Shown: in pieces, positions 661 to 44,900 of the stretch | Numbering within the stretch: position 1 is the stretch's first letter | Layout: the number at the start of each line of letters is the position of its first letter | Origin: Amphiura filiformis | Taxonomy: Eukaryota > Echinodermata > Ophiuroidea > Amphilepidida > Amphiuridae | Assembly: GCF_039555335.1 (NCBI RefSeq) | Contig: NC_092628.1 | Location: forward strand, 97,964,536 to 98,028,535 | Direction of reading: 5' to 3' | Length of the DNA stretch: 64,000 bases | Notes under the pieces: generated by a model | Database searches by the model: none | What the model was told of the DNA's origin: nothing | The model's input: only the letters and a program-made list of their open reading frames with translations | Program-made: the position numbers and the translations under genes

Positions 661-2830
661 TAATAAATTAATTGATAACTGTTGCTTGCTTGCTTATTGT
701 TTTATCTTTTCAATGCTTGCTTATTTATTTAGGGGCTGTGCAATAATTATGAGGGGTGGGTATAATTTCCAAACGGCTCGTCAAAAATCCCCCCCCCCCT
801 CTCGGCCTGCCAAAAATCGCTTGCTCCCCCTCTCGGACCGCCAAAAAATCTTTGCCACCCCCCTTGTACATGCCAAATTTTTGTGATCCCAATTTGCAAA
901 CCTTAAATTGTCTATATACATGTTGCGGGCGTAGCGAGCAGGAAAATTTGCATATTTAAGTGTTTCCGTACGGTTTTCCTAAGCCTTTTTAGAGCGTTTT
1001 ATTTAAAACTAGCGGGAGACCCGCGCTTCGCGCGGGTCCCCGCTAGTTGAGTAAACGGGAGCGGTTAGTAAACGGGAGTGGTTAGTAAAGAGGGCGCAAC
1101 ACTAAATCACTCCGCATTTTATGTAACAACGAAATTCGGCTAATATAGTCCATAGTGAACATGAGATTGTAGCGACCATATCTACCGACATGTTCACTTT
1201 AAATCACTCAATATTGGCTCATATGAATTCGACAAGTGTCTTTAATGATAACATGCAGAAAAAAACTGGACAATTGATCTCAAAAGCAATTCTCTGTGGC
1301 GGATTAAGAGAAAACCCCATTTTGAAATGTGAGTGGTGAGTTTAGTATATTTTTAGCTATTATTTTTTGCACCGCAAAATAGCGAAAAAAGTCAATGGTC
1401 ATCGATATATGCCGACAAATGTTTTGGAATCTAGAGAAACAGAGCTTTAATTTGATACCAAATTTATTTTGCCAAGTATTGCAGGGACGTCAGGAATGGC
1501 GCTTGAAGTAGGCCGAATTCACACGTTATCCTATGGGACGCTGAATTAGTGCTGCGCCCCCTAAACATGGTAAACGGTGATGATGATAATCATGGTGTCT
1601 TGGTGTAGATTATTCATCCAGTATAGCATGTATAGTAATGACCATGTTAGCTTGATAATCATACGTTAGCTCCTGTCATATTAAAGAAGCTAAATAACTT
1701 TAAGTGAATATCCAGACCTGTGATAATGTTGTTACTCACTCAATCACTCAGATTTCTTTTGAAACAGCTCGTGACAAAATGGTTGATTTTAACTTTATCC
1801 CAACAAACATAAAACATTAATGTTAAAGAGGTTGCTAGAAAACGTTTCAATTTCGGGTTATAATGGTATAAAACATGTAAGCATCATGTTTAAAAGTTGC
1901 AGCAAAACATTTTAGCGAGCCCGTGTTAAAAGCTAGGCCTACATTATAGCCAGGATTTATTTGAGGGGTTCGCAGAATTTCCAAAATGTGGACTTTCAAG
2001 TTCTACTAAAGTGGGCTCACCCACCCCCTATCATTTAATCTTTTCGGGCTATACTGAACAGTTGAACGACTCTGCTATATTTTAACATTCCATCTGAAAA
2101 GTGGACTTTTTTTTTGCAAATCTGTCACCCAATAACCCCCCCCTTTTTTTCATCAGCTTACACCCAATGATCCCCCCGAAATGGTTTCAAGCCCTTTGCT
2201 TTGACCCAGTTTCCAATTCTGAGGGGACACAGGCACACAGCCGGCTGCACGGCGCGCGACACAATGGTGCTTCTTGGCCATTCAAAGAGGTGGCGGCAAA
2301 AAACTTCCGGGGTGGTATGTCTATGCGTAGGCCTACGCGTGTGGTACGCCAACATTAAATGCGTCCATACCATGCGCCGCAATGCGCGTGAAACCATGTG
2401 CCGTGTACGCGCAGGTGCGTGACTCGCCACTTACCGCGCGTGTTGGACACCGCTTGCATTTTGACGCGTTTGCTGTCATGACCTGACCCATAAGGTTATT
2501 GACCTCAACGGCCTAGCAACCGAACATTTTTTTTGTTATTTCCATAGTGACTAAATAGTTTTGCAAAAATGAACGTCAGATGGTTTAATGGCAATATGTA
2601 CCCGATCAATGTACGAATAAATCAGAGCTGAAAGTGAAAGCATCTCGGAGACTGCTTCTGGACAAGATTTAGCGACTTCCTTTTATTTATATAGATGAGC
2701 CCCAAGAATGTGTGCCAAAAATCGCATGCCCCCATCTCGGCTTGCCAAAAATTGCTTGCCCCTTTTGGCTCGCCAAAATTTCTTGCCCCCCCCAATTTTA
2801 CCCTTCCCCAGGGCTCATAATTATCACACA
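661..2830. repeat. Intergenic stretch with two C-rich dispersed modules and a GC hairpin
   Basis: Modules at about 779-880 and 2710-2800 share a pattern of GCCAAAAAT-CGC-TGCCCCC phrases separated by CTCGGC-TG. The left module is preceded by GGGCTGTGCAATAATTATG (734-752), which also occurs inverted at about 28013-28031. A hairpin lies at 1007-1048. The rest (1050-2700) shows no gene. Confidence 0.6.
1007..1048. repeat. GC-rich hairpin (19-bp stem, one bulged A, 3-nt loop)
   Basis: AACTAGCGGGAGACCCGCGC, then TTC, then the complementary strand ending CCCCGCTAGTT. The stem is perfect except for one bulged A. Its GC content contrasts sharply with its surroundings. Confidence 0.85.
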
Positions 2831-2864
2831 TTTGTTTTTTTTATTTTTTTTATTTTTTATTTTT

Positions 2865-2955
<91 letters not shown>

Positions 2956-3012
2956 TTCATTCATTCATTCATTTATTCATTCATTCATTCATTCATTCAT
3001 TCATTCATTCAT

Positions 3013-3055
<43 letters not shown>

Positions 3056-4085
3056 TTTGTGATTATATATTTGCTTGTTTATTTATTTGATCTATTATTT
3101 ATTTGTTCATCGCTCGCATCTAAATAAATAAATAATTAAATAACTTAGCAAGCAAGCAATAAACAATCAAGCAGGCGTGTGTTCAAATACTAACGCGATC
3201 AAACACGACCAACCTATCCATCAATATATCAATAATCAATCAATCATTACTTCAACAATCGCTCACATACTCATTAACTCACCCAATCAAAATGACAGTG
3301 GAGTGATTGATTGATTGAGTGAGTGAGTGTGGGGGTGAGTGGGGACGGTGTGAGTGAGTGAGTGAGGACTATCTTTTATGTGCAATAGTAGTGATAGATT
3401 GATTGAGTGACCGAGTGATTGATTGAGTGAGTGAGTGAATGATAGTGGAGTGGTTGATTGAGTGATTGATTGATTGATTGAGTGAGTGGGTGAGTGAGTG
3501 AATGATAGTGGAGTGATTGATTGGTTTATTGAGTGAGTGAGTGAGTGAGTGAGTGAGTGAGTGAGTGAGTGTGGGGGTGAGTGAGTGTGTGAAAGTTGAG
3601 TGAGTGAGTGAGTGAGTGAGTGAGTGAGTGAGTGAGTGAGTGAGTGAGAGAGTGAGTGAGTGTGGGGGTTAGTGAGTGTGTGAAAGTTGAGTGAGTGAGT
3701 GAGTGAGTGAGTGAGTGAGTGAGTGAGTGAAGGAGTGAGTGAGTGGGTGAGTCGAGTGAGTGAGTAATGAGAGGGGTGAGTAAGAGGTGTGAGTGATGAG
3801 AAGGGTGAGTAAGAGTGACGGATGAGTGATTGATTCATATAGTTCGAGATGTGATAGGTGATTAAACAAAAATAATTAAATAAATAAATACACGCACAAA
3901 CAAATAAATACAAAATGTAGATACATAAGTACCATAAGTATAGGCCTAGGCCCTATAAATTAAATAAATTAATAAATTAATAAATTAATTAATAACTTAA
4001 TAAAATAATAAATAAATTAATTAATTAATAGATTAATAGATTAATAAATAAATAAATTAATAAATTAATTAATTAATAAAAAAAA

Positions 4086-10500: not shown

Positions 10501-13500
10501 TCGGAACCTAGGGCATTCATGAACAATGCCTCCGAGCCCTCCGTTCAACAGTTCAAGCACATTCACTTAAAAAGTAATATGGTACCGTAATGAATAATCA
10601 TGAAAAACAGCTGTTGTGATTTGAAAAAGTGACGGCCGCATATTTAAAACGTTCATTCCTATGGCTTAATTAAGGGGGTACTACACCCCTCGATAAATTT
10701 GTGTCTATTTTTGCATTTTTCTCAAAAACTAATAACACAGTGGTAACAAAAGTTATGTATATTATAGGGGCAAGGAATCAATTACTACACTGGAATATCA
10801 GTGACCCAAGACAAGCGGTTTGTTATTTATGATCAGAAATAAGGTACCGCTAGGATGTACCTCATTTCCTATCATATATACTGAGCCGCTTGTCTTGAGT
10901 CACTGAAATTTCAGTGTAGTAATTGGATTCCTTGCCCCAATAATATACATAACTTTTGTTACCAGTGTGTAATTATTTTTTGAGAAAAATGCAAAAATAG
11001 TCACAAATTTACCACATGGGTGTAGTACCCCCTTAATATCTACCTGGATGATTGAAAATATTCATACAAATTGACATATACTGCTTCAACCCAGAAGTAC
11101 AAACCAAATTTGTTGCATCGGGGGTAGATGCTTTGCGTCACATGCACTGACTGTGTGTTAAAAAACATGACGCATAAAGAGCATGGTGCGCGCAGAGAAG
11201 CATAAATTACACATACATTGTACTGAAATAATTATTCTCATACCTCCAGTTTCCGAGGTCTATTTACTTTGTACTTCTGAGTTGACAGACTTTATTTGGG
11301 TATCTGCAAACATGGTGGGTACAATTGGGCATTTTACCCATACCGCGGAAACATGGCATGTTGCCTCAGGGGATCGACGCTAAGTCAGGTACCGCGTGAG
11401 CAAACTCAAAAATAAGCGCAAACAGCGGCGTACATACTAAAAGAAACTTCGCGTAAGAAGAGCGATGTCGCCAGGTCTGTACGCTGTACGGCGTCAGCTG
11501 AATTGAGTACGCTTTACAGGCATGAAAAATTCCAATCTGTGTATTAATAATCTAAGATTTTACCACATTTATAATGTGAAGTAAATGGTTGTTTATGTTC
11601 AAAATGCTTATTAATTACAGAGAGGAAAAGATTCTACAAAAATGTGAGCATCAGCCAAATTGGTAGCAATAAATTTGAAGTCAACCTGGACAAAAGAAAG
11701 TTGAGGACACCATTGGGGAATATATTCACTGTACCAACAGAACCATTAGCCATTGCTGTAGCCACTGAGTGGGATGCCCAGAAAGAAATCATTAAACAAC
11801 ATACAATGCATCTGGTGAGGAATTAATGTTATAATTAGAGAATAAAGGTAGAACAACAAGGCCAAAGCCTGGGTTATTGAAGTAAGTAAGGCATCACAGT
11901 GTTATGATAAGTGCATGACAAAGCCTCCAGTCACACTACAGTGGAAACTCGTTAATACGAGATCGCTTAATGCGAGAATCCGCTTACTACGAACAGACAC
12001 TCGTGGTCCCGATTTCCCCCTATTATTTACTGTACAAAATAAACTGTTTAATACGAGGTAAATAATACGAAATCCGCATAATACGAGCACTTGCTGTCAG
12101 TCAAAGCTTTTGTTTTCTATTGTTTTTATGATGGATAAAACGAGCTAATTTCCCAAGGAAAATTTATGATGTAAATCATGTGAGAAGTTGACAAAATACT
12201 CGCTCGAGACATCACTTTAGCGGCAAATGATGAGGATTCCCTTTCCTATTTTTAGATGTTATAAAATCAAGTCATGACGAAATTTGCCATATAAGGCCAA
12301 TTATTGCTGACGACATCCATATCCATATCAGACATATCAGACTAGCCAATCGCAAACGCGGAAGTCTGCCCTTTGATCGAAAGTGGGAAACCCTTCAAGG
12401 CATGTTTACTAACTGCTGGAAGTAGGGGAAATCCCGATATCGCCATATAATTGTTTTATTTGGTTACGATAATCAGCTTGAGAAAATCATCTGAATTTCT
12501 TCAGAAAGCTGTGAGAAAAATGCCTCTTACCGAAAAACAAAAACAATTATTAGCCTATCATACCGATTGAGGGAATTTCAAACTGTGACATTGCTCGGAG
12601 GCTGCAAATCTAGTATAAAATAATGAAGATGGCTATGCAGACTCGACCAGTGAAGTTTTGCTTGTACAGCCCACTGAGCCGACTTTAGGCTTAAACACAT
12701 GCAGTCTTCCGACACATTTTGTACCCGACTTTTAAAACAAACTCCGCTTAATACGAGCTAAACATGCCGACCCCGGCGATCTCGTATTAACGAGTTTCCA
12801 CTGTATTAGGCCTATACTTGAGTGGCCCTCCGGGAAAACCATCAGCATGAATGCAAGAATATATCGTAAGTTCCTTTGTATTTCAATGTTACTTACAATA
12901 TACAGTTTGCATTCTTCAGATGATGTGAGTTTGTCAGGATAGTCCCAATTTTCAGCATTATTTGTTCAAAAGCATAAGAATATTAACTGAAAGCAGTCAG
13001 GACATATGCAGTACCGGTACATGTAAATGCATTGGTGATCATTATACCTTATTTGTTCCATTAACTGCCCATGCCCCTACCTAAGTGCCCAACCAGTGAC
13101 TTTACAAGTGAAAATGCAAATTGTTACTGCCCATGCAAATCTGGTTCATGGTCTGAAATATATGACATACTGATGTAGATGGATGGCTATTTTGAGCCAT
13201 TTTTGTCTTATGCAATTATGTAAACAAAGTAAAAAAATAAGTCCCCGCCAAAAATGACTTTGCTAAGCGCCCTGGGCAGTTAATGGAACGGATATGGTAT
13301 TTGATATCAATGTTGAATCCGGTATTTGATATATCAATGTAGTCATCTTGTTACAACCAATTAAATTACAAATTATAACTTTTGATTAGCCAAAGTAGAC
13401 ATGGTCAAAGATCAGACAAAACCTTGTAAAAGAGAAGTATCATTTAGAGTCTATGATTACATCTATCTACATGTGCAAGTAATCTTTTGGCATGGTTTTA

Positions 13501-16500
13501 CATATTCTTTTGCTTCTGATTTTTCTCCTTCCAGACATCATTATGTAACACTGCACAAGATAATCCTTCCATGAGAGCAAAAGACAAAGTTGTGAGAGGC
13601 ATTCTTCACTTTTTAGACACAGACACAATATGGTAAGTTGGCATTTTGTAAACAATTCGACTTCTAAACAGAAAATTGCTATGAAGTTTTCCATTGTTTG
13701 AAACAAGACTTCAGAATAAATGCTACCCTAGCCTGAAGTCAACTTCAATTGTGACATCAAATTCTGATTGTAACTTTGGATTAGCATGAATTAGACAGGG
13801 TATTTACACCACGTCCAGAATGTAGTCGACTTCAAACAAAGGGTGAATTAGACTTTTACGCCTTTGCTCATGCTTCAATAGTCATTATGAAATCGCCCTC
13901 TAAGGGAGTTTTTGTTTACATTGCAAAATTTTGAAGCGCAGATTTGAGTTTGAATTAAAAGAAACGGTCAACATTAGAACAAATGAAGTCTAAATTTGAC
14001 TGAAGTCAACTTAAGAGTCTAGATGTAAACAGGGTCTAGTATTAGTGTTTGGTTAAAGTACTAGGGGTAGGATTTGGGACATAGATAAGATCATTGATCC
14101 TTCATATGATAAGATTAATTTAAATAGGGTTATTGTTGCGTGTATTTCATTTCTTTTATTTCCACCATTGCTTCTTCACAGTTACAGGTTAAATGAACCA
14201 GTTGAACTAGTGCAATTCCAAACAGCTGAGTGGGATCCAATGTTAGAATGGATCAACAAGAAATATGACACAGAGATAACATCATCAACATCAATAGTTG
14301 GACCTCAGATACCGGATTCAACCAAGGAGATGATCACAAAGCATTTGAGCACAAGGAGTGATTGGGCACTAGTAGGTGAGTGATAAAGTTACCATTGTCA
14401 GGCCCAATTTTGACCTCAGGATATTCATTTCACATAACATAGTCACTCAATCAAGTAAACACTGATTTGCTATGTTCCCTTGATGGCCTGCCATGCTTGT
14501 AGAAGAAGAACATGAGTAAAAATATGTACTCCCAGTCGATGCACAGCACATACCACACCTTTAAGCTTCAGAATGAAACACCAGATGTGAAAAGTTGTGG
14601 TCTACAACATGCCATTCAGTCCTACTATGTAGCCTATTGTAGGGGCAAATTGGGCCTAGGGGAAATCAGACCCTTATCCGTGTGCTCAAGGTGAAATTTA
14701 CCCCTACCCATGTTACTGTCTTGCTAAAAGAAATAGCAATCAGTGGCTTTAAGGTGCTGAGGACAAATTTCTTCATCAAGGGAAGACAATTTCATTATTG
14801 TGTTAAGGCGACACAATCTTTTGTTGGTCAAAGCAACAACAACAAAAAATCAATTTTCATTGTCTAAATCAATATATTATTGAAAAATAACACTTTGATG
14901 TTTTGCAAAAGTTCATTCTACAAATCGTATACTTTGAAAACTTGCTTGATTTATTGTTAATGAGTTATGTACATTTTACAAAAGTGTTGTTGTTTCAGCC
15001 CTCTTTACATCATAACTCAAGAACCACAGGACCTACAAAAGTATATCTGTGATATTTGAATCCTTCTACATGCTCGCTATGAATTGAGCTATGCAATTTT
15101 TGCCAAAGCTCACTACCATTTGCACGATGCTGTGAACTACCAAATTGCAAACTTGTTTAAAATAGTTGCTAACCTCAAAGGTCTAGTGTACATGTATATA
15201 ATAAATGGATCATGATTTACACTTTTTTGTACTTACCAGGTTATGAGAATACAGTGCAGTGTTTGAAATCTGTGGTGCTAGCATTTGCTTTGATAGATAG
15301 GGAAATTACCGTAGAGAGGGCAGTCGACTTGTCTAATTTGGAATTGAATTACCAGGTGAGTACTACTACATACAGGCAGCCCTGCATAGAATACTGCACG
15401 TGTAATAGAAGAGTACACAATTTATTTTGCACTAAAAATCTGTAATGAGCATAATATCAGTGAAAGATACTGGACTGTAAGCCTCTATTATGGTGATACC
15501 TTAGATTTAACTGGACATTGTACAGTGATATAGTCCTATAACTTTGATGACCAAATTGTACTCATTGAATAACCTAACTTGCAGACTATTCTTAAAATTC
15601 ATCTATATTTCAGTGTTCCACATCTTCCGCATATGCACTTAATACGAAAGCTAAAGTTTACTTGATCTAATGGCAGCACAGTTTTTCCAGAATTTAACTA
15701 TTTTGCCATTCCACCTTTCATTGACCTTTTTGGTAAATCCCATAATTCCTTGCGATTGGACCTGAGATGTCTTCATTTGACGTCACACCAACTTGCAATG
15801 CACAGTAGCGGTGATCACAATGTGCCGTGCGCATCAGCATGACCTCAAATGAGTATCCGACCATAATGGCTGCAAGGATGTTTTCTTTTATTTGAGATAT
15901 CAGCAACGACAAATTGCAGAAATACTAGTAACCAAGTTATAAAACTAAGACAGTAGAAGGTACAGATTCAAACCCTTTGGTTTATACACGTCATGCATGT
16001 CATGAGTGCCTATGACAATAACCTTATTCAAAGGTGCAGCAAGACAATCAGGCTTACTATGGTAAATGTTGACAGTGTAAAATATTCACCAAAACTGGTT
16101 GAAAAGTGCCCAATTTTGTAAAAACTCCTAAACAGCCTGTTTTAGTGAACTTGGTTAAAATTTTACAGAATAAAAAACTTTCCTTGGCATTTTATAGATC
16201 TAGTTTCTGGAAATTGATAAACAAAAATTTGGGTTAAAAAACATTTTTTTGGGGATTTTCTCCAAAATGTGAGCATTTCTTCCCAAATTTAACTTCACAG
16301 ATGGATTTGTAAAGTAGTGTTTGCCATTTTAAATATGTCTAAGGCTCTAAGGTTTCCATAATAAATTAAGGGTTTCCAGGGTTATGACCAACCTTAAATT
16401 TCAATACAATGTTAAATCATGGCTTACTATGCTGTTGAATTTGGTCACATTCAAGTTCTTCGACAGCATTTTGTAGGCTCATTCCAAGTTTGCTAGCTTC

Positions 16501-16866
16501 AAATTATTGAAATCTACGCTCTACTAGAGATCATCAAACAGAAGATTTCACTATATCTGGCTCTAAGCCCTCAATATGTCGTTGCTACACATAATTATTG
16601 CAATACAAGTAAAACTTTGTCACAGTTTTGCTATGCAAAATTCTGACACTAAATTATGCCCTGAATGTTGCAACTTGGGTTGCCTTATCTTATGCTAGTA
16701 TTTTCTGCCTGTGTTATTTCTGTTGCAGGTCCAGAGATGGGGCAATGTGGAATGGTCACATGATATTGAATATGCCGACTCAAAGGCAAGAGTTGCAGCA
16801 GCATCACTCTTTGTTCACCTGGTCACAGAACAAACAAAGAAAATTAGCAAATCATCATTATTATAG
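7522..16866 (+). CDS. ATPAF2: ATP synthase mitochondrial F1 complex assembly factor 2 (six exons)
   Basis: Exons 7522-7609, 11621-11814, 13535-13632, 14182-14375, 15240-15355 and 16729-16866 join in frame (828 nt, 275 aa, TAG stop) with GT-AG introns. The family (ATP12 in yeast) is a matrix chaperone that binds the F1 alpha subunit during ATP synthase assembly. Exon 1 encodes a basic, Arg/Leu-rich N-terminus starting MLGTMLGAKCLRLQRG, with no acidic residue in its first 28 or so, as expected for a mitochondrial presequence. It ends in phase 1 and joins exon 2 as ...FR-E-RKRFYKNVSI. Family-typical stretches follow: IAVATEWDAQ, TSLCNTAQDNP, FLDTDTICYRL, EWDPMLEWINKKY, SSTSIVGPQIP, LAFALIDREITVERAV and WGNVEWSHDIEYADSKAR. 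Length is close to the human protein (289 aa). The start is the first ATG of exon 1; a second ATG four codons on is possible. The gene converges on DRC3. Confidence 0.95.
8232..8601. mobile_element. TTAA-flanked palindromic MITE, copy 1
   Basis: Bounded by TTAAGGTGGTACTACACCCC and its inverted counterpart ending GGTGTAGCGCCACCTTAA. Internal arms match along most of their length (AACAAAAGTTATGTATATTA; CAAGACAAG-GG). TTAA at both ends fits piggyBac-type insertion. It lies in ATPAF2 intron 1. Confidence 0.85.
8602..10669. other. ATPAF2 intron 1 interior without recognised gene
   Basis: Between the two TTAA elements there are no exons, RNA genes or clear repeats that I can name. The sequence is AT-rich with scattered short frames. 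Confidence 0.5.
10670..11036. mobile_element. TTAA-flanked palindromic MITE, copy 2
   Basis: Same family as the element at 8232: TTAAGGGGGTACTACACCCC at the left, GTGTAGTACCCCCTTAA at the right, and shared interior phrases (AACAAAAGTTATGTATATTA, AAGACAAGCGG). It lies in the same ATPAF2 intron. Confidence 0.85.
11939..12803. mobile_element. Decayed pogo/Tigger-like DNA transposon (865 bp, TA duplication)
   Basis: Terminal inverted repeats CAGTGGAAACTCGTTAATAC ... inverted, flanked by TA on both sides (11937-11938 and 12804-12805). The terminal CAGTGGAA...CGTTAATACGA pattern is typical of pogo/Tigger elements. At about 12520-12608 a relic resembles the N-terminal helix-turn-helix of such transposases: PLTEKQKQLLAYHTD, then after a frame slip EGISNCDIARRLQI. 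The rest of the transposase is gone. It lies in ATPAF2 intron 2. Confidence 0.8.
13044..13300. mobile_element. Degenerate AATAAGCGCCCA-family MITE, copy A
   Basis: Left ATACCTTATTTGTTCCATTA-ACTGCCCATGCCCC; right, inverted, ATACCATATCCGTTCCATTA-ACTGCCCAGGGCGC. Interior GACTTTGCTAAGCGCCCTGG matches the copies at 22693 and 57645. Confidence 0.7.
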
Positions 16867-20455: not shown

Positions 20456-20746
20456 ATATGTGTACATCCATATCAAAAGGATGCACTTGTCGGCTGCTAC
20501 ATGTGTCTCTTTTTACATAATAGCTACGAATAAATACCAGACTCATCTCAAGTGGAGGTCACTTCAAATCATCCCAAGTCACATGGTTTAGGAATGTTCT
20601 ACCTGTATTCTCAAAGCATGTAACTTGGGGATGATTTAAAGTCACCTCCTTGAGATGAGTCTGGTATTTGTTCCTAGCTAATTATGTAAAAAGAGACACA
20701 TGTAGCAGCCGACAAGTGCATCCTTTTGATATGGATGTTCACATAT
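20456..20746. repeat. Large imperfect palindrome (arms about 145 bp)
   Basis: ACATCCATATCAAAAGGATG-CACTTGTCGGCTGCTACATG at the left is repeated inverted at the right, and the arms continue through ATACCAGACTCATCTCAAG to a centre near 20600. A diverged relative of one arm (GTGTCTCTTTTT...AAATCATCCCCAAGT) sits inside the element at 60481. Confidence 0.8.
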
Positions 20747-21762: not shown

Positions 21763-24700
21763 TTACAAACCAGACGGCAAGTCCAAGTTATCCACCTCTT
21801 CCCTTATATTGTCAACAAAGTTATTGATCTCTTTGACTCTATTCCTGTTCCTGGTGACCTCCTCCTCTTGATGGATTGTCTCCATGAGTGCTCCAAGCCA
21901 CCCGTTGGCCCTCTGGATGATGTCATCTTCTCTGTTGTCTATCTTGAGCATGTGGGTGTCATGGGATGCACTGACAGCATTGGTGATTGTGTCTTTGTCA
22001 ACCAGCAACTGTAAACAGACAATAAGTAACTTATTTAGACATACACAAATTGATCTTTGTCACTAGGTCAGGAAGTTTTCTTCATTATTGTGGTGATTGG
22101 TGAAAAAGACCTTTTATTTAGAGTTTAACTACCACAAATCATATTACTCAAGTTTTCAATAAACTGAGAGGTGCAGTTTTACTTGTTTATTTGAAAACCA
22201 ATTATGCGGCTATGAAAGAAAATTCTAGACATAACAAGTCCTAGCAAAGGAATTTAAATCTGCGAATATCAAATATCACATGAATGTCCAGTTATGTACA
22301 TCAGAAAAACATAACTTCAAAGAGACTGCAAATAACCCCATAGGTAAACCATTTCATTGGATTGTCACACATGGGGACCAAAATAGTGTACCTCCAGCAT
22401 TAATACTGTTAAATGCTTGAAACTGAATGAAAACTTTCAACCTTAGCATCTCAAAGGTTTGTGCAGTGTTATTCAAAGTCTCCTATGTACATGGCAATAT
22501 GTATATTACAGAGGTACAGTATATCCCCTTCATAAGTGATACGCAAGAGTCCAAACTCTAATAAGGGTTATTCCTGTGACGTCACCTGTCTGCCATCTTG
22601 TAGGTTCAGGCCGCCTTTGCCTTGAGCATTCAATCATTTACGCACCAACGCAAAACACTTTGCCAACGCACAACAACAGTTGCGTGATGTATGTACCGTA
22701 TTCGTTCCAATAAGCGCCCATGCCCCAATAAGCGCCCATCCAGCGACTTTGCAACAAACACAATATGAAATTATTAACCGCCCATCCAATGTTGTCAAAA
22801 TACTTCCACTGAAGTTCCAGTAAGCTTACCTGTCGAGTGATTTTACATGCATGCATGAGGGAGATTGAGCATCAAAAGTATCCAAAATGTTCACCAAAAT
22901 TAAATTATGACGCTATTTCATAGTGTGGAGATGTATAGATATTAAAAATACTTCACAATAACCACCTGCAAATGCCTTTAAAAGGCCAAGTTTGAGCTAA
23001 TTCTGTCTCAAATTCGTATTTTTTGCCGGCGCGGCAGCGGCCATCTTTATAGTGCGCCCTCAAAACATTTTTGTCAATATAATATTAAATTAAGACACAT
23101 ATGAGGGCGCACTAACTGAGAGTAACTAAATACTTTCAGACAGTGATTGATGACTAAAAACCAGGTAAAAAATAAGCGCCCACCCAAAATGACTTTGTTA
23201 AGCGCCCTGGGCGCTTATTGGAATGAATACGGTACACACAAATTGATATGTATCCACAAGATGGCAAAAGAAGGAATATATATCTGCAATACTTACCAAT
23301 CTAAGGTCTTCTGGTAGCTCATCATCCAATTCATTCTTGACATACTTCTCCAAGGTGATGATTGCTATCTCCAGCTGCTTCTCATGGTGAGCATTCTCAA
23401 AGTCACGGATCTGAGATATCGTAAATATCTAGTCAAGGAAACTAAGGTAAGTTATTAAAACAAAAGTGCTGAGAATTACATCAAAGATTAGTAATAATGA
23501 GTGCTCAACAAGTGATTTCTGTTTTCTCTTTGTTTTTTATAAAATAAACTGTAGGCATACCCATTCGCAGTCAACATTTGCCAACTGTATGTGGCTTTAT
23601 ATTGTTGCCAACTAATAAGCAGGTCTTGTAACCATCCAATCAGAGGCACTGTGTAAATACATAATTTGAGAATGGTATACACATGGAGTGGTTTGAAGAT
23701 GCTTACTCAGGCTATTGTGAGCACAAATGAAACTACTTTTGATTATTTTTGCCTATCTTCACTACCTTATTGTATAGATTTTAACATGCAACATCAGCAG
23801 ATTTAAGGTGGTACGAAAGGCAAAATCAAGTTGCTCTGATTGAGATTAAAATAGACTTGTTGCAGAGAGATATGCAAAATAATCTTAATTCCAAAATTTG
23901 AGCCAAATCGGACAAACGGTTTTGAGATATTGCTGTTGAAAGATTCTTTGTATTCTATTGTTTTTGCCAATATATTGATGAAGTTAATGAGGAAAATTGG
24001 CAAAATGTGCTCATTAATATTAATTTTTGCCAATATTTTGCCAATATTTTATGAATAAACCTTCATACTACTTTTACCTTTAAAATTTTGACCTGAAACT
24101 TTGCCAATGTGTCTCTATGACCTAAACCTTTAACATGTGATTTTCCGCCCATCTAATTTGCATATTTGCATAATTAATTAGCCTTAAGTATAATGCTAAT
24201 TAATTATGCAAATATGCAAATTAGATGGGCGGAAAATCACATGTTAATGTTTTAGGCCATAGAAACACATTGGCAAAGTTTCATGTCAAAATCATATAAA
24301 ATAAAAGTAGTATGAAGGTTTATTCATAAGATATTGGTATAATATTGGCAAACATGAATATTCATGAGCACATTATGCCAATTTTCCTCATTAACTTCAT
24401 CAATATATTGGCAAAAACAATAGAATACAAAGAAACTAAAAACATGTATATCTTGACAACCGTATGTCCGATTTCCTTCAAACAAAAACTATTTTGCTCA
24501 GTGTATTTAGCTTAACTTATTCAATCTATTCAAATGGCTCTAAATTCAGTGTCTGTTTTCCAGAAACATCGTTTCGAACCCCCTTAAGAATTGTTCTGAT
24601 CCTGTCAAAAACTCATTTGCCATCTTAGACACAAATTTTGAATGTAAAAACCTCCAATAAACTTGGAATGCTATGTATTTTGACATCATAAAGGATATAA

Positions 24701-27700
24701 TCCTTGCACACTCTCCACAAATCCAGCGACCATATCAGCCAGGTTTCTCTCAAACTCTTTGATTGTATCCTGTGAATAGTGGGGAAAAATCAAATGGTGA
24801 TTACTATATATATTATCATTGTATTGATAATCATGGAAACTTTCACATATATAAATCCAACTGCTCTTCCTGATGATCATGTAAAAAGACTTAGGTCACA
24901 CGCTGCTACGCAGCTTGATCGTCTAATGAAGTACAGATGTGATGACATGATAAACAGCACCAAATCAGCAAACTGCTGAAGAACCTTGCTAGAAACTATT
25001 ACAGTGTCTATATGTGATGCGATCAAGCAAAATCAGTCGAACTCGGAAATATTAAATTTTCAGTTTCTTATAGGATAGTAAAAAGCATTTACAAAGCTAG
25101 ATTTTCAGAAAACCCCATTGTAATTGAACAACCAGTTCCAAACATATAGGCAATTAAAGTGTTTCCAAAACAAGAGGAAACAAAAGGAAATAGTACCTTT
25201 GTTTGGCTATATATCAAAATCAATATTTCCGAGTTCCGACTGATTTTGCTTGATCGCATCACACATATTTTCACACTGCATGGATGGAAAATATAGTGGC
25301 AGCTTGACTTGGTTGCATCTTGTATTAATTGACAGGCATTTGGTTTGAAAATGTGGCAAATCATTGACATACTGGTTTGTCTGCTGCAGGATTAAGGGTT
25401 TGTCTCAATAGACTAACTCTTGTGGGACTTTGCATCATGCATGCTGCTGCTACTACAATCAGGCCCTACGTTTCTTGAGGATTCTACCAGAGGAGAAAGC
25501 ACTTTTTTGACTTCACCTATTTGAATTACAATGCTGTTATGCCCTTTGAAACAAACAAATCTGAACAAAATCAACATGAACAAAAATTTTCAGTGGCATG
25601 TACTCACCTCAAGTTGGTCTACTAATTGCAGCTCAAGTCCCATCAGGGTATCCCATAGTTTGGTGGTTTCCTCTGTGTATTCACTAAGTAGAGTGTCCAG
25701 CATTTTTGGATCTGTGATCATGTGGATCTCTTCAAACACCTGGAACCAGAGTAAAATAGTAAATTTATGGCAAATCTGGAATACTATATATTGCATGATA
25801 AAGTTTCTTTTGATAAGTTGTATCAATTTTCAATTTAGACAGTACTAACAGCTACATGCGAATTAAAAATGATTTGTACCAATTTTGATTTGAAAACTTT
25901 TAATTTTGTATCTTTGGTTTAAAAGAATTGTACATGGCATACTGAAAAGAAGATGTACTGTGCTGACAAATTGTGACTGTGCATATTTATCAAAAGATTT
26001 AACACAGAATGTATTTCTGCTTGCTGTTGGCAAGGAACTGAACACCCCCAAATATTTCCCCATAGCTAACGGTGCAAATATACAGTAAAGTATCAGGAGT
26101 CCGGATCATCTCCCTATTTATTATTTCTGTGGTTTCAACTGATAAACTCACCTTCTTCTTGTATTTCTTGAATTCATCAATCTTCTTGATTGCCATTGCC
26201 TTGTTCTCCCTCTTGGCATCATGTACACAGGAGTAGAACTCATCTACCTCTTTCTTCCTCCTAGCGTGTTCCTTGAGACCCACCTCAAACACTTGCTTGC
26301 ATATACCCACCATCTTATCTTTGTAAGTGTGGCTTGAATTAAGGAAATACTTTATAAATTTAATTGCATTCAAAGTTCATAAACTTAAGACAGTGAATGA
26401 TTTGCAAAGTTATGTTTTGTTTCTACATTTAAGCGTTACTGGCAAAAGTCATTGTATTGTGCATCCAAAATTACTGTAAAAGTGGCCATTTCCGCGAGTG
26501 TAAAGTTTTTGCACTTTGCCGATTTTTGACTAATTTGCTCGTTTTTAAATTCAGGATTAGTTTTTTTACATAGACCTATACCTACAAGAACATATTGGCG
26601 CATTTTTATTTTTGCGATAGGTTGAGCGCGAAATGCACAAAAATTAATATTCTGCAAAATGGTCCACTTTTACAGTATATATATTCTGGAATATATGATA
26701 TATATGTTACCAAGGTTGGAATTAAAGGAGCAAACTTACTTGCTGACAAGGGGGAAGGTGCAGTCAAGGAGGATATGAAGAGTTGTTCAGATGCAAAAGC
26801 CAATATTAAATTAAATTGACACCCTACTTTAAAAAATTCAATGTATCTTATTATCTCCCTTATTTTTGTTGGGTAATTGATTGTAAAGGATATATGAGTA
26901 GTAGTTCATCCACACCAGGCAGTGCTGCTAGCTTAGATGCATCTGGATCTTCCTCAAACATGGTATCAAATAAGTAGGGACCATTCAAGTTTTCTACATA
27001 TGCTTCCTGCAAAGGAATAAAGAAAGAAATGACAAACAGAAATAGCAGCTCTAGCAGGTAATCATTTACTACTGAATCAATGAGTTTGCAACACTTTGTT
27101 GGATTTGTTTGGTCGATCTTACATAAACAATTTCCCAAGAAAACCTGTCTGACATTAAAACCTCTCAATATTTTGGTATGCTCTCATGTGATGTTGTTCT
27201 ACATGCAACCCACACCTACATGTAACCACTGGCAAATGAGGATGTGATTCAAATAATAGAGTGTTTCTATCCAACGTGGAGACACACATTTTGATTTTTT
27301 CTTTGCCTTACCTTGAGTGTGGTTAAAGTTTAACTATCCAAGTGCAGACCCACCCCATACCAGAAACTGTGGTCATTAACTATAATACTTTCTTATGGCA
27401 TTTAATATGTAGAAACACCATCTAGGAGCTGTGCATAGTTCCTATGGGTCCACTGTTGCACAGAGATTTCTTGTGTGTGTTTGCTGGTGTTTACACATAC
27501 ATACCCCACCCTGCACACACACACCCCCCACACACACACACACCCCACCAACACCCCCTGTATACCCCCATTCACAAACCTTTTGTGTTGAAAACTCCGT
27601 ATCCTTAGCCTCTTGTTCCAATCTTTTATTTTCAGCTGATGTTTCATCTGCCACAAGTTCCTCAATGGCATATCTGTATTGCTCCATTGCTGCAGCTCTC

Positions 27701-30700
27701 TGTTGGAGAAACAATCACATTGGAATGATCAGGAGATTCACAATTGGGAATTACTTGCTTGTTAGAGGCTTATAAATCCTGATACATACAGCTACTTATA
27801 TATGATGTACGTAAACTTTGCTGAACATTTTCATTGTGCTTTAATTTCTACACCCTTGTAGTACATCAAACTAACACTGTACCCTAAAAATAGTGAGACA
27901 AAAATTATTCCCACCCACTTAGTTGCCTAAAAGTCCCTTTCCCTGTCACATCTCTCCCATTCTAGTCTGACAACAATTTATTGCTCCTCATTTTTATCTC
28001 CACCCAGGACACATAATTATTGCACAGCCCTTAAGAATACATGTACACACTTGCTCTTGATATTAGTCATTACAAATTTAACCCATGCTCAATTTATGCA
28101 CCATCCTCGCCATCTCCAAATAAGATCATGTACTTACCGTGTTTCCATCAATTAACCTGAAGTCTAAATACACTAATGATGGAACATGTGCCACTACAAA
28201 TGGTTTATAATTGGGATCCTCACAGAATGGATTGCCAGCTAGGTTGATGGTCTGGAGACTCTTGAATCGCCTCAAGTATATTAGCTGTATAGGAGACATT
28301 AAAGTGATAAGTTTATGAAGTTTCCTTATGGATTAATGTTATCTGTCTTCATCAAAACAGTTAACATTGATGGATCAAGATTGAAGTTGGAATTAAATTC
28401 TTTGCCTCTTTCATTTAACTGGAGAAACAAATGGCTTTAAGATAGCTTGAAATGTGTGAGGCAGGCAGGGGCATAAACAAATTTACTTTTCTTCCACTCA
28501 GTGTACAATTATTAAGATACAGCATGCAAACATAACTTGATGTGAGAACAAAGAAGCTGCACAATGTCAGCTTCATAAAGAATATTATAAAAACTGCTGT
28601 GCTACATTCATTTTATAAATGGTTTCAGTGCAATGGCACTTGAGACTATTGCATCTAGATGTGAACATTAAGTATCAAACCCTATAACTTGGCCCACCAT
28701 CCTTTTTTAGTTTTACAAGCAGTATGCAAGCACTGGCAATGTTTGGCAAATGAGTGGAGCTTAATGCTGTAGCAGATTATAGGCAGATTGCAGGACCAGA
28801 TCGGAATAATAAAGTCAAGCATATTTTAAAGTATGATTTGATATAGAGAGGATTCACGGCTGTTTGATGTATATAGAATTGGCTTCATTATTAACTAAAT
28901 GTAAACTATCGATGGTGCTATTGATCCTCAATCATATTTCTTTATTTGCAAGGGTTAGGTGATTAATACTGCCATTAAAACAGCTGGAATAGGTGAAACA
29001 AGCAACAAGGAAATTTTATAAACATATTTTATCAAACAATAAAAGGAATTATTTGTATTAAAAGCTTGAAAGGGTAATTTCCAGTAACTAAATAGCGCCA
29101 CCAATTTTGGCATTAATAGATACATTTTATATCCGAAAAAAGCTTTAAAAAATACTATAAAAGTGAATAATTTTGTAAAAGAGGGGGAAATTAAAGTTGA
29201 GAACGACTCAAAAGCATCTGTATACATTAATAGCAAGATATCACTTTTAGCTGTTTAAGGATAACATGATGTTTTGTTTATAAATGATCCCATCAAACAA
29301 CGGTGGATTTATGATTCAAATAAGGGAACCAATATGCACAAGATTTGGTGTATCACTGTAGGATAATAAATAAATAGCACCAGATTAACTACAGGTGTAA
29401 CTTATCAACTGGGCTATATGTCAATTCCAAATACACTTACATTTTCTAGTGAGCTGAGATTATTGTTGCCAATGGACACCACATGTAACCCTGTGAGACT
29501 GTCCATGTTTTCCAAGGAACTAATTCTGTTGTTGTACAAGGTTAAATCTTCCAGCTTGCTCAGCTGACTAAGACCATCTATGACTTCAATATTGTTGAAC
29601 GATAGATCTATAAAAACAAAGTCATTCACATTTGAATAGCAATGAATCAATTCAAGCACTGACAATGACAAGAAGAATGTTATGTAGTGTGATATCTCTG
29701 CAATGTAATTCATCAATCAACATCTTTTAAACCAAATAATGCCAAGCGAAAGATTTCTCTTAGAACCCTACACCTGTTGCTATATGAGGGCACGGTGGCT
29801 CAGTGGTTACGGCCTTGGACTCATAAACTGAGAGCTTGCTTGACGTGCGTGGGTTCAAGTCCCCGTCCCGCCACCGTGTTGCGCCCTTGGGCAAGGCGCT
29901 TTGTCTCGCTTGCCTCACCCCACCCAGGTGCAATGGGAAGCTGTTAGGGGTAGTCACAGTCGTTGTACTGATAAACCCTGCGCCATTTGTAGGCAGCAAA
30001 TGTGGTTCCGACATATTCTAATAACGGCGGAATAAATGTAAAGCGCTTTGAGGCTGTTTACGGCATAAAGCGCTATATAAATATCTACATTTTTTATCTA
30101 CATTTTATATGGAATTTGATTTGCTGCTTATGCAACTGGTTGATTTTCTGTTCAGCTGTCGGGGAAAAAATGAAAAGGAAATTCATTATGGCAACAAAAT
30201 GGCAAAAACGCCTTGGTGGAGTTAGGGTTATGCAACCACTTTTTTCCCTTTATCAGGATAGCTAATATCAATGCTATGGGATCGTTGGAATGTACTGATT
30301 GTGCAATTTTCTGGAAAATAACATCTCCAATAAGATTCTACTAAAACTGAAATCAAATTGATTTATGGTCTTCCAACTGTATTAATTATGGAAGTACAGT
30401 ACTTGTAACTTACTCTTACACTTACCTAACCAGACTAGATTCACCAGTGTATCTAAGCCTTCAATTTTCTCTATGATGTTGTTGTCTAATTGAAGTTTGA
30501 CTAAACTCTTAAACTGCCAAAGGTTGTCTATCTTCAAAATATCTGAAAGAGATCATCAAGAGAAGAGAATATCAATTTTCTACACCGTATAAAAGATGAG
30601 ATTTTATTTGTTTTGGAAGTACTGGCAGGTTGAATGAATAGTTCACAATATTAATTAAAAGAACACATTTTCAATGTTTTGTTAATCCGCAGGATGAATG

Positions 30701-31238
30701 AACAAAAAGTTTTGAAAAATGTGTTTTTTGTGCATATCCTCAAATAGAATATCCTCAAATTAAAAGTGAAACACATGCAGCCACAATACCTTACATCCAA
30801 AACAGTGTTTGTTTATTCAAAAATTAAATACCGGTATCTGATTTTAATTCACCCTGTGCACGGTCATCTCATTAAAAAGGTTCTACCTGCAAAGTGTGTG
30901 TTGCGTACGCCCGTCAAACGCATCATTATTACCGCATACGCTTTGCAAAAGCTTTCTAACTTTGACTTTTTGCAGTTTTTTTGCACATGCCTTTTGCAGG
31001 GCAAACCTCATTTTGGTAGCAAGATGACAGATCTACAGGTGCAAAGGGCAAATTATACCTGGTGTTCTTATGACTTACTCTTAAAATCTAGCCTGAGTTG
31101 AGTCACATCTGCAAAATCAATCCCCTCTGTTTTGGCAATGCGTCCTGCTTCATCTTTTGGACCTTGGTCTTCAACAGCCTTTTGTAGCATGTCTTCGTCT
31201 ATAACAGACGGCTCAACCGTGTCATAAAGCCGACTCAT
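21763..31238 (-). CDS. DRC3: Dynein regulatory complex subunit 3 / LRRC48 (eleven exons)
   Basis: On the - strand, exons 31238-31079, 30542-30426, 29607-29441, 28284-28138, 27699-27580, 27006-26894, 26326-26152, 25739-25608, 24769-24699, 23420-23297 and 22008-21763 join in frame to 1572 nt (523 aa, TAA stop), the same length I recall for human DRC3. The protein is a subunit of the nexin-dynein regulatory complex that links outer doublet microtubules and tunes dynein in motile cilia. Residues about 40-190 are leucine-rich repeats (NLWQFKSLVKLQLDNNIIEK, LDLSFNNIEVIDGL, LEDLTLYNNRISSLENMDSL) closed by a cap (VPSLVYLDFRLID). The rest is charged and helical, a probable coiled coil, ending in a conserved block (LLVDKDTITNAVSASHDTHM, LKIDNREDD, RNRNRVKEINNFVDNI). 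Introns 6 and 9 only splice in frame as AT-AC introns. The exon 5 donor (GTTTGT) is weak. Head to head with the TOM1 gene. Confidence 0.95.
22693..23235. mobile_element. AATAAGCGCCCA-family MITE, copy B
   Basis: GTACCGTATTCGTTCCAATA-AGCGCCCATGCCCC at the left and its inverted form GTACCGTATTCATTCCAATA-AGCGCCCAGGGCGC at the right. It lies in DRC3 intron 10. Confidence 0.82.
23421..24698 (-). other. DRC3 intron 9, predicted U12-type AT-AC intron
   Basis: The exon ends ...GAGAGTGTGCAAGGATT and the intron starts ATATCCTTT. The branch-like TTCCTTGAC has its A at 23433, 12 nt before a terminal AC (23422-23421). The join reads ...FVESVQGLISQIRDFENAHH, parallel to the vertebrate VQSLMAQCRDLEN. Using the nearby AG at 23412-23411 instead would delete conserved residues and break the frame. 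The intron also carries the 785-bp TTAA palindrome (23803-24587). Confidence 0.87.
23803..24587. mobile_element. 785-bp TTAA-flanked palindrome
   Basis: Begins TTAAGGTGGTACGAAAGG and ends CGTTTCGAACCCCCTTAA. The arms match along nearly all of their length, including AATTAATTATGCAAATATGC with AAATTAGATGGGCGGAAAAT next to the centre (about 24190) and CAATATATTGATGAAGTTAA further out. The start shares TTAAGGTGGTAC with the element at 8232. It is inside the second AT-AC intron of DRC3. Confidence 0.85.
26031..26133. mobile_element. Fragment related to the hAT-like MITE at 20841
   Basis: Shares GAACACCCCCAAATATTTCC-CCATAGCTAACGG and GGAGTCCGG-TC...TTCTGTGG with the right end of that element. It lies in DRC3 intron 7. 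Confidence 0.55.
26327..26893 (-). other. DRC3 intron 6, predicted U12-type AT-AC intron
   Basis: The preceding exon ends ...GTGGATGAACTACTACTCAT and the intron opens ATATCCTTT, the minor-spliceosome AT-AC donor consensus. Near the 3' end TTCCTTAAT (26347-26339 area) matches the U12 branch consensus TTCCTTAAC, 12 nt before a terminal AC at 26328-26327. Joining here gives ...DELLLIYKDKMVGICKQV, which matches the conserved LLxTYKDK of vertebrate DRC3. No GT-AG alternative restores this reading. Confidence 0.88.
27490..27570. repeat. CA/C-rich microsatellite beside a DRC3 donor site
   Basis: ACACACACACCCCCCACACA-type sequence. On the DRC3 strand it is a TG/G-rich tract starting within about 15 nt of the exon 5 donor GTTTGT (27579). 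Confidence 0.85.
29787..30108 (+). mobile_element. tRNA-derived SINE
   Basis: The 5' part resembles a tRNA gene with an A box (TGGCTCAGTGGTTACGG) and a B box (GGGTTCAAGTCCC), followed by a body and a tail AAGCGCTTTGAGG...AAAGCGCTATATAAATATC, then TCTACATTTT repeats. The GCGCTATATAAA tail is shared by many animal SINEs mobilised by LINEs. It lies in DRC3 intron 2, antisense to the gene. It is not a functional tRNA gene: the anticodon arm does not fold convincingly. Confidence 0.85.
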
Positions 31239-41900: not shown

Positions 41901-44900
41901 AGGAAGATTTATTTTACACAGAAGATGATGTTTCTGTTGCATGTCAAATAAGGCTTGTATATTTTGTTAATTGTTTAATTCTGGATTGCTTAATTTCTAT
42001 TTTTAACAATTCCATTGACACCTCATGCATATTTATACTGGGTAGGATTGTAGCTATGTTCACTGGAGGAGCATGCAAACTCAGTGAAACTGGCACTGCA
42101 GCCCTGTTATATTGATTTTTCAAAGTAAAATGCTAATACTATACTACAAATACAATGCATCCAAAGATCCAAGAATTAATGAGGTGTCGCTGGAGCTGAA
42201 TAACAGTTGGTAACAATTTTCGGAAAAAACAATGTCTTCGCTCATTTTGACATTTTATGCAGTGGTTTAGAAATGTAAAGACTTTAAACATGTATTGTTA
42301 TATTGTATTGTTATAGTTTTGATACATAATGCACAGTTGGTGTCTGTGTTGATGACTCAGCCATTATCAGTATTGTTTATTCAGTGCAAAGTCAAGCAAA
42401 TCCATGTCATGGCAGACCATTTGGAAGATATATGTCTGAATAACATATTAATTTTATCTTAGGCAACTCGTCACCTAAAGTGGAAAAATATTACATTACC
42501 ATTTTAATTATACTCACTGCACAAATACTGATTTGAAGACAACTTAGGAGAAATCTTAATTTATTTATTTTATGCACATTTTAAATGTTATCCTTTAATT
42601 GTGTAATGTGAGAATACCTCAGTTCCAAATTCTATTAATGTTCTGATACATGTATACATAGAATAAATCTCCCGTTGTGTGGTTTGTTGTTCAATTCTTT
42701 GTGCTGTGTTGTGTCCATACACACAGAAACCTCCTACATTAACTAAAATTTCAGTAGCCTGTAGAGTATGTTTGCACACCTCTACTTTTTCAAAATGTAT
42801 GTTTGATAATTAAAAAAACAATATAGGGAAATACTGATAGTGCCTTTAAGTGTCAATGTTTGATTGTTTTAAAATCCATTTAGGTGCTGGAGACGTGTGT
42901 CAAGAATTGCGGTCATCGATTTCATGTGTTGGTCTGCAAGAGGGACTTCATTCAGGAACTGGTCAAGATCATCCAGCCCAACATCAATCCACCCACGGTG
43001 GTCCAAGAGAAGATCCTCAGCGTGATTCAGACGTGGTCAGATGCATTCAGAAGCGCCCCCGATCTGCAGGGAGTGGTAAAAGTTTACGAGGAGATGAGAC
43101 AAAAGGGAATTGAGTTCCCTGCGACAGACTTAGACGCATTGTCACCAATTCACACACCACAAAGAGTAAGTATTTATTTTTTATGCACAGAAATCGGGTG
43201 TCTTAGCTAGCCAAATGTCCTTTTGAACAGTTTGCTGCTGGGGTGTGGCACCCCGCAATTTACTTCAGAAAGTTTTACAAATCCGTCAATTCGTTATTTG
43301 CATAAAATTCACACACCACAAAGAGTAAGTATTTATTTTGTATGCACAGAAATCGGGTGTCTTCGCTAGCCAAATGTCATTTTGAACAGGTTTGCTGCTG
43401 GGGTGTGGCACTCAACAATTTACTACAGAAAGTGTTACAAATCCTTCAATTCGTTATTTGCATGAAATGTGCACTAAAATAAAGGTGATTGGCTCCACAA
43501 CAGAGACACAGAGTGTACATTCTTCTTTTTGAGTCATTGGTGAACACCCATGTGTATAACTCCTAAATACATTCAGATTTGTTTGAACTACAAAACTTCT
43601 GGCAAAAAAAATCATTTTGGTTAAATTTAGAAACAGGAATCTCTACTTTCTGTTTCCTTTCCATTTCTATGAAAATCTTTATCACTAGTTTTTAATGTTA
43701 CGCTTACTGCACATGTGTCAGGAAATGGGAGGTCCCAGGGTCAGGATTTTTACAGATCGACCTGTTTTTATGCATAGCAGGTAGACATTTTTTATGCTAA
43801 AATATTTGCAAATTAAACAAAATACAAAATGGCCCCAATAATGCAGATGGCAAAAATGTGATTTGTAGTTAAATAGTGTGCAAATAAGTTGAAACAAGAG
43901 GTTTTGTTTGTTTGTTTGTTTGTTTTTTGTCTGTTGTTTAGTGTTCGTTTTACTTATTGAATCATTTCCCAGGATTTCAAGATTTAAAAGCTGTGCTACA
44001 TAATAATGTTGCTATTTCATATTATCAATTATTTCACATACATGTACATATGTATGCAATTAAACATTGCCATTTAACATGACTGTTGTTATACATGTAC
44101 AATTGTACATGTAAAACTAATCATTCCAAGCTGATGACACTAAAACAAGTAGGGCAACTGCTTTACTATCTGCAATTCTGCATGCATAAAAAAGTGTTCA
44201 ATGTCATATTTAATTTACTCACCTTTGTATTGAGTGAGTACTATATTATCACAGGCCATAGCCTTGATAGAACTAACATAATGGGCTTTGACTATTATAA
44301 ATGTATATAAATAGCCAGACCTTTCAATTCAGTTAAGTGCATTATATCTCACTGATAGTACCTATTGTCCTGCATGTACATTGCACTTGAAGAACAAGTC
44401 CAAATGAGGTTTTATAGATGGCCGTATACACATGTTGATTATGATTATATTTTAATTTTCCATTATTTCATTGATTTCAAGTTTGCTATGGCAACTAGTA
44501 AGTTACGAATCGTACAGGCGTACATGTAAAATGGTTGGAAAATTCTTCTCAACTAAAGTCCCCATGATAACTCTCTCACTGTGTCTAAGCGGCCGGGGTT
44601 CAATCACAGCTGAGTCCTGATGATATTTTTCTCTGTCAAAATTTTCATATGCCAGTTTACTTGAGCCCAAAAATCATCATTTAAATCACAATTTCTCAGG
44701 CTTGCATCATTTATTTCCAATCGTCACATATATTAATTGTGTCTTGCATTGTCTTACACCCTGCTAGGCTGAATCATACAGGCCACCTCCTTCTTTATTA
44801 TTTACAAATAGGTTTCCCCATATTAATATTCCATAGCTCAAATAAGGTTGAATAAAAGTATAAAAAGTATAGAGTATACAGAGTGCAATCTGGTACAAAG

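Follow-up and report, generated by a model that had tools for sequence, protein, structure and literature searches.

The 64-kb stretch of DNA analysed here as a whole (the window) carries on its minus strand a coding region of 11 exons (21763..31238) that, in a gene model rebuilt from the window, runs as an open frame from an ATG at 31238 to a stop codon ending at 21763 and specifies 523 residues. Its identification as DRC3 (LRRC48, N-DRC subunit 3) is supported by the rebuilt model together with matches of the predicted protein to solved chains and to Pfam families. In a search against solved chains, the protein matched 9fqr_Qv (E 1.2e-174, over residues 1-518), 8j07_3 (E 8.5e-170) and 8glv_Em (E 5.1e-89), all of which bear the label dynein regulatory complex subunit 3 and which we take to stem from bovine, human and Chlamydomonas, respectively. 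Residues are identical at 279 of the 516 aligned positions in 9fqr_Qv, alignment is near full-length, and the 523 residues compare with 522, 523 and 524 in the solved DRC3/LRRC48 chains. Leucine-rich repeats are common to both sides of this comparison and sit in the N-terminal half, where Pfam reports LRR_9 at residues 92-207 plus LRR_4, both exceeding the curated cut-off. No relatives of DRC3 were confirmed among five pattern matches in viral contigs and 40 in prokaryote genomes.

Pieces of two further genes, both on the plus strand, flank DRC3. One belongs to the ATP12 family (ATPAF2-like; 11575-16863) and consists of a segment with a Pfam ATP12 match (11575-11823) and of three pieces which, once joined, extend from about 14183 to 16863, hit solved chains of ATP12 (E 4.5e-06 to 9.1e-06) and gave no Pfam match at 0.001. 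The other, at about 42884-43168, encodes a TOM1-like VHS domain with TARGET OF MYB1 as the best solved match; the open frame at 45887-46339 had no Pfam match. On human chromosome 17, TOM1L2, DRC3 and ATPAF2 are adjacent and in the same relative orientation. If the arrangement is indeed the same, gene order is conserved and orthology of DRC3 gains support, and the shared ATPAF2/DRC3/TOM1L2-type arrangement would be a case of deeply conserved gene order.

Eight of the ten introns within the DRC3 coding sequence have GT-AG ends and two, introns 6 and 9, have AT-AC ends (in order: five GT-AG, AT-AC, two GT-AG, AT-AC, GT-AG). Intron 9 (23421..24698, minus strand, 1278 nt, phase 2) separates coding exon 9 (24699..24769, minus strand, 71 nt; DTIKEFERNLADMVAGFVESVQG followed by two bases of the subsequent codon) from coding exon 10 (23297..23420, minus strand, 124 nt), which begins ISQIRDFENAHHEK. 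With its flanks it reads GGATT/ATATCCTTT...TTCCTTGACTAGATATTTAC/GATA, slashes marking the splice junctions, and its terminal bases are TTTAC. A motif scan placed the U12-type 5' splice site ATATCCTTT at 24690..24698 and the U12-type branch site TTCCTTGAC at 23432..23440 of the same strand, in which position 23433 is the presumed branch A. Intron 6 (26327..26893, minus strand, 567 nt, phase 2) is built in the same way and reads CTCAT/ATATCCTTT...TTCCTTAATTCAAGCCACAC/TTAC with its flanks; here, the 5' splice site ATATCCTTT lies at 26885..26893 and the branch site TTCCTTAAT at 26338..26346 (minus strand, presumed branch A at 26339). The textbook U12-type consensus is ATATCCTTT for the donor and TTCCTTRAY for the branch site, and both introns match all nine positions of each. 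Each has its presumed branch A 12 nt from the final base of the intron, and in each the AC end restores the reading frame. The initial annotation had presented intron 9 as the second AT-AC intron of the DRC3 gene, with a ATATCCTTT start and a branch site 12 nt before its AC end; the gene model reproduces its coordinates and these signals exactly and provides the partner in intron 6 (26893-26327), the anatomy of which is identical.

Phase 2 in both introns agrees with the published underrepresentation of phase 0 among U12-type introns (PMC7367187). The numbering refers to introns inside the coding sequence; an acceptor-like CACAG directly 5' of the ATG hints that the 5' UTR is interrupted by an intron as well, in which case intron 9 would be intron 10 of the transcript. 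An origin of one AT-AC intron as a copy of the other finds no support: between them, blastn returned no more than an exact match of 14 nt and one of 21 nt at 81%, both in opposite orientation.

The protein encoded across the junctions speaks for the AT-AC boundaries. The joint of exons 9 and 10 reads ...FVESVQGL/ISQIRDFENAHHEK..., and, in line with the earlier proposal that splicing here restores conserved residues (QGL/ISQIRDFEN), it is gapless relative to the solved chains 9fqr_Qv and 8j07_3. The alignments to these two chains are likewise free of gaps over the intron 6 junction, and as internal stop codons are also absent, the gene looks intact and not like a broken copy. We then scored alternative boundaries against 9fqr_Qv, taking in-frame, stop-free pairs of the three kinds GT-AG, GC-AG and AT-AC within 75 nt of each intron edge. 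For intron 9, the AT-AC pair given above ranked first of 55 in-frame options with a score of 1442.5. Use of the AG at 23412-23411, which had been named as the acceptor that could overturn the assignment, is disfavored: in combination with the AT donor it removes 10 nt from the downstream exon and causes a frameshift, and with the best in-frame GT donor it reaches 1409.5, 33 points lower. Another AG is located within intron 9, 4 nt 3' of the branch A; if it were used with the AT donor, the frame would be displaced by 8 nt.

For intron 6, the pair given above (1442.5) came second of 57, the best GT-AG pair scoring 1411.5 and thus 31 points less. First place went to an AT-AC pair moved by 2 nt (1443.5), a near-equal homology score. 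The intron ends in CACAC (26327-26331) and hence in two tandem ACs, such that the junction can be placed 2 nt earlier at both edges (CTC/ATATATCC...GCCAC/AC) at the cost of a single residue, with codon ACT in place of ATT before YKDK. As ATATATCCT would be the donor of the shifted pair and makes a poor U12 site, we infer that the exact U12 donor favors the original intron 6 junction over the 2-nt shift.

Taken singly, neither motif is informative, as each occurs within chance expectation in 64 kb. The donor RTATCCTTT has three matches in the window against 1.67 expected (19 of 100 shuffles reach three), and the branch motif TTCCTTRAY has four against 3.41 (44 of 100 shuffles reach four). Their combination was tested by requiring an exact ATATCCTTT, an exact TTCCTTRAY within 60-3000 nt and an AC 5-15 nt further on, with 300 single-strand dinucleotide-preserving shuffles of the window as the null. 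It is found twice on the minus strand and not on the plus strand of the 64-kb window; a single copy appeared in five of the 300 shuffles and two copies in none. The test is conservative, because it disregards the fit of the motifs to exon ends defined by protein similarity. When the donor was relaxed to the 8-mer RTATCCTT, four more donors appeared in the window, each on the plus strand, and two are followed by a branch motif with at most one mismatch; one, at 27599, lies antisense within DRC3 exon 6. Inspection by eye of the 150 nt before each of these four donors, and of the sequence after one acceptor, revealed no recognizable exon of a known gene. Rfam at gathering thresholds returned no RNA family for the 64-kb window, which at that size carries little weight as to the presence of U11, U12, U4atac and U6atac in the genome, and ARAGORN on the window gave zero hits.

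Exon 9 could in principle be joined to exon 10 via a canonical GT-AG pair, the AT-AC motifs then being a coincidence, and in-frame, stop-free pairs of this kind do exist for intron 9. The best of them yields a protein of 522 residues; it scores 1420.5 against 9fqr_Qv, 22 points below the AT-AC pair, and its donor GAGT/GTGCAAGGA is far off the U2 consensus, whereas the AT-AC option brings exact U12 donor and branch motifs right to the exon edges. We therefore regard a canonical junction as extremely improbable. Just as little credence can be given to a variant in which the AT-AC ends are real and the cut is made by the major spliceosome, as in intron 21 of SCN4A. U2-type AT-AC introns are known, and those of sodium channel genes have a G at +5 (PMC2831892); introns 6 and 9 instead carry C at both +5 and +6, which speaks against membership in this class, as do an exact U12 branch motif and a branch A 12 nt from the end. 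From established U12-type AT-AC (A-type) introns, in contrast, the two introns, as known from sequence alone, do not differ in any sequence feature, be it donor, branch site, AC end, 12-nt spacing or phase 2. Both are thus almost certainly of the U12 type, and intron 9 would be a genuine U12-type AT-AC intron, one of two such introns and the second in order along an animal DRC3 gene that is intact, a reading to which we assign a probability of about 0.96.

Splicing of intron 9 by the minor spliceosome would proceed by pairing of U11 with the ATATCCTTT donor and of U12 with the branch site TTCCTTGAC, followed by entry of the U4atac/U6atac.U5 tri-snRNP, cleavage at the AC 12 nt past the branch A and departure of the intron as a lariat, leaving the QGL/ISQIRDFEN joint. 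Recognition of donor and branch site, tri-snRNP entry and lariat release are established steps of minor splicing, transferred here to DRC3. Failure to splice either AT-AC intron would truncate the protein: with intron 9 retained, a stop is predicted after residue 404 (tail VQGLYPL), and with intron 6 retained, after residue 285. The slow swimming of a Chlamydomonas drc3 mutant and the hydrocephalus and laterality defects of a mouse Lrrc48 missense mutant (PMC4978901) indicate that DRC3 matters for motility. It is plausible that DRC3, and with it the cilium, is sensitive to minor-spliceosome activity. One may go further and view the two introns as a U12-specific control point, at which inefficient splicing of AT-AC introns, occurring twice, throttles DRC3 and the assembly of motile cilia when that activity is low; this would add to the assignment as minor introns and not exclude it. 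Apart from the early stops predicted upon retention, such a role would be in keeping with the 92% of A-type minor introns that responded to CENATAC depletion in human cells and with reporter experiments in which AT-AC minor donors were outcompeted by GT-AG ones (both from PMC8280824), and also with the enrichment of cilium assembly among minor-intron genes upregulated in mouse testis (PMC6717393). The same logic, however, fits any minor-intron gene, and the excision rates of the two intron classes are, in PMC7367187, considered too similar to affect expression meaningfully, such that we deem a dedicated control point rather unlikely. Our guess, from the general history of such introns, is that both AT-AC introns are most likely minor introns kept from an ancestor and that no dedicated regulatory role attaches to them.

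The two AT-AC introns agree in class, subtype and phase, and exons 7-9 between them (24699..26326, minus strand) therefore form an in-frame block of 378 coding nt. Splicing from the donor of intron 6, which is identical to that of intron 9, to the acceptor of intron 9 was computed to give an open frame for 397 residues, with 126 residues of the C-terminal half removed. That this block serves as a minor-spliceosome cassette is nevertheless very doubtful. Within exons 2-10, consecutive exons can be grouped into 45 blocks, 17 of which are divisible by three, and the fit to the frame on its own is consequently weak evidence. The absence of exon skipping around U12-type introns has partly been put down to the small number of genes with several of them (PMC3584512), and a DRC3 gene with two would permit skipping of this kind. 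The same-class, same-phase pair is a natural test case for class-matched exon skipping, and, if the cassette were real, it would exemplify a route that is closed to genes with a single U12-type intron.

How exceptional is the pair? The initial annotation had called two AT-AC introns in one gene unusual. This holds for most genes, as one U12-type intron per gene is typical (PMC3584512). Such pairs are, however, on record: U12-type introns of either subtype occur in twos in about 50 human genes and in threes in a few (PMC3584512), and clustering in the same gene is significant in all 21 U12-bearing genomes of IAOD (PMC7367187), which weakens any claim of novelty. Among human minor introns, about one in four has AT-AC ends (PMC10639083; PMC8280824). 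As in the human genes with two U12-type introns (PMC3584512), the DRC3 pair is set among ordinary GT-AG introns; it differs in that the gene encodes an axonemal N-DRC subunit and in that the two introns, both AT-AC and in phase 2, enclose exons whose lengths amount to a multiple of three. No publication linking DRC3 or LRRC48 to minor introns was retrieved; DRC3 is absent from the accessible text of PMC13216214, PMC10639083, PMC6717393 and PMC6865273 and LRRC48 from the three of them that were searched for it, including PMC13216214, but gene lists are kept in supplements outside the reach of the search, so that this silence says little. On sequence evidence, DRC3 joins the genes with two minor introns, here both A-type, as one that encodes an N-DRC subunit of the axoneme. 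If the transcript is spliced as predicted, motile cilia of this animal would need minor splicing at two sites of a single transcript. Should vertebrates have U12-type introns at both positions, DRC3 would become a candidate for the cilium phenotypes of minor-spliceosome defects; should they not, it would be a data point on the loss or conversion of minor introns.

A near-palindrome at 23897..24482, clear of the splice signals of the intron, occupies 586 of the 1278 nt of intron 9 and thereby nearly half of it. Aligned with its reverse complement, it shows an 88% match over 588 columns, and it contains inverted repeats with arms of 152 nt (91%) and 102 nt (94%). In the pre-mRNA it would fold into a long hairpin, for which -368.9 kcal/mol is predicted. 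The element may be a fold-back transposable element; in a blastn search of the window, it matched only itself and its own reverse complement. A second inverted repeat lies 3' of DRC3 at 20456-20746, with 66-nt arms at 98% (20456-20521/20681-20746) and inner arms of 32 nt at 94% (20521-20552/20649-20680). Finally, positions 2821-3087 of the plus strand are of low complexity and contain open frames made up of repeated FIYL units.
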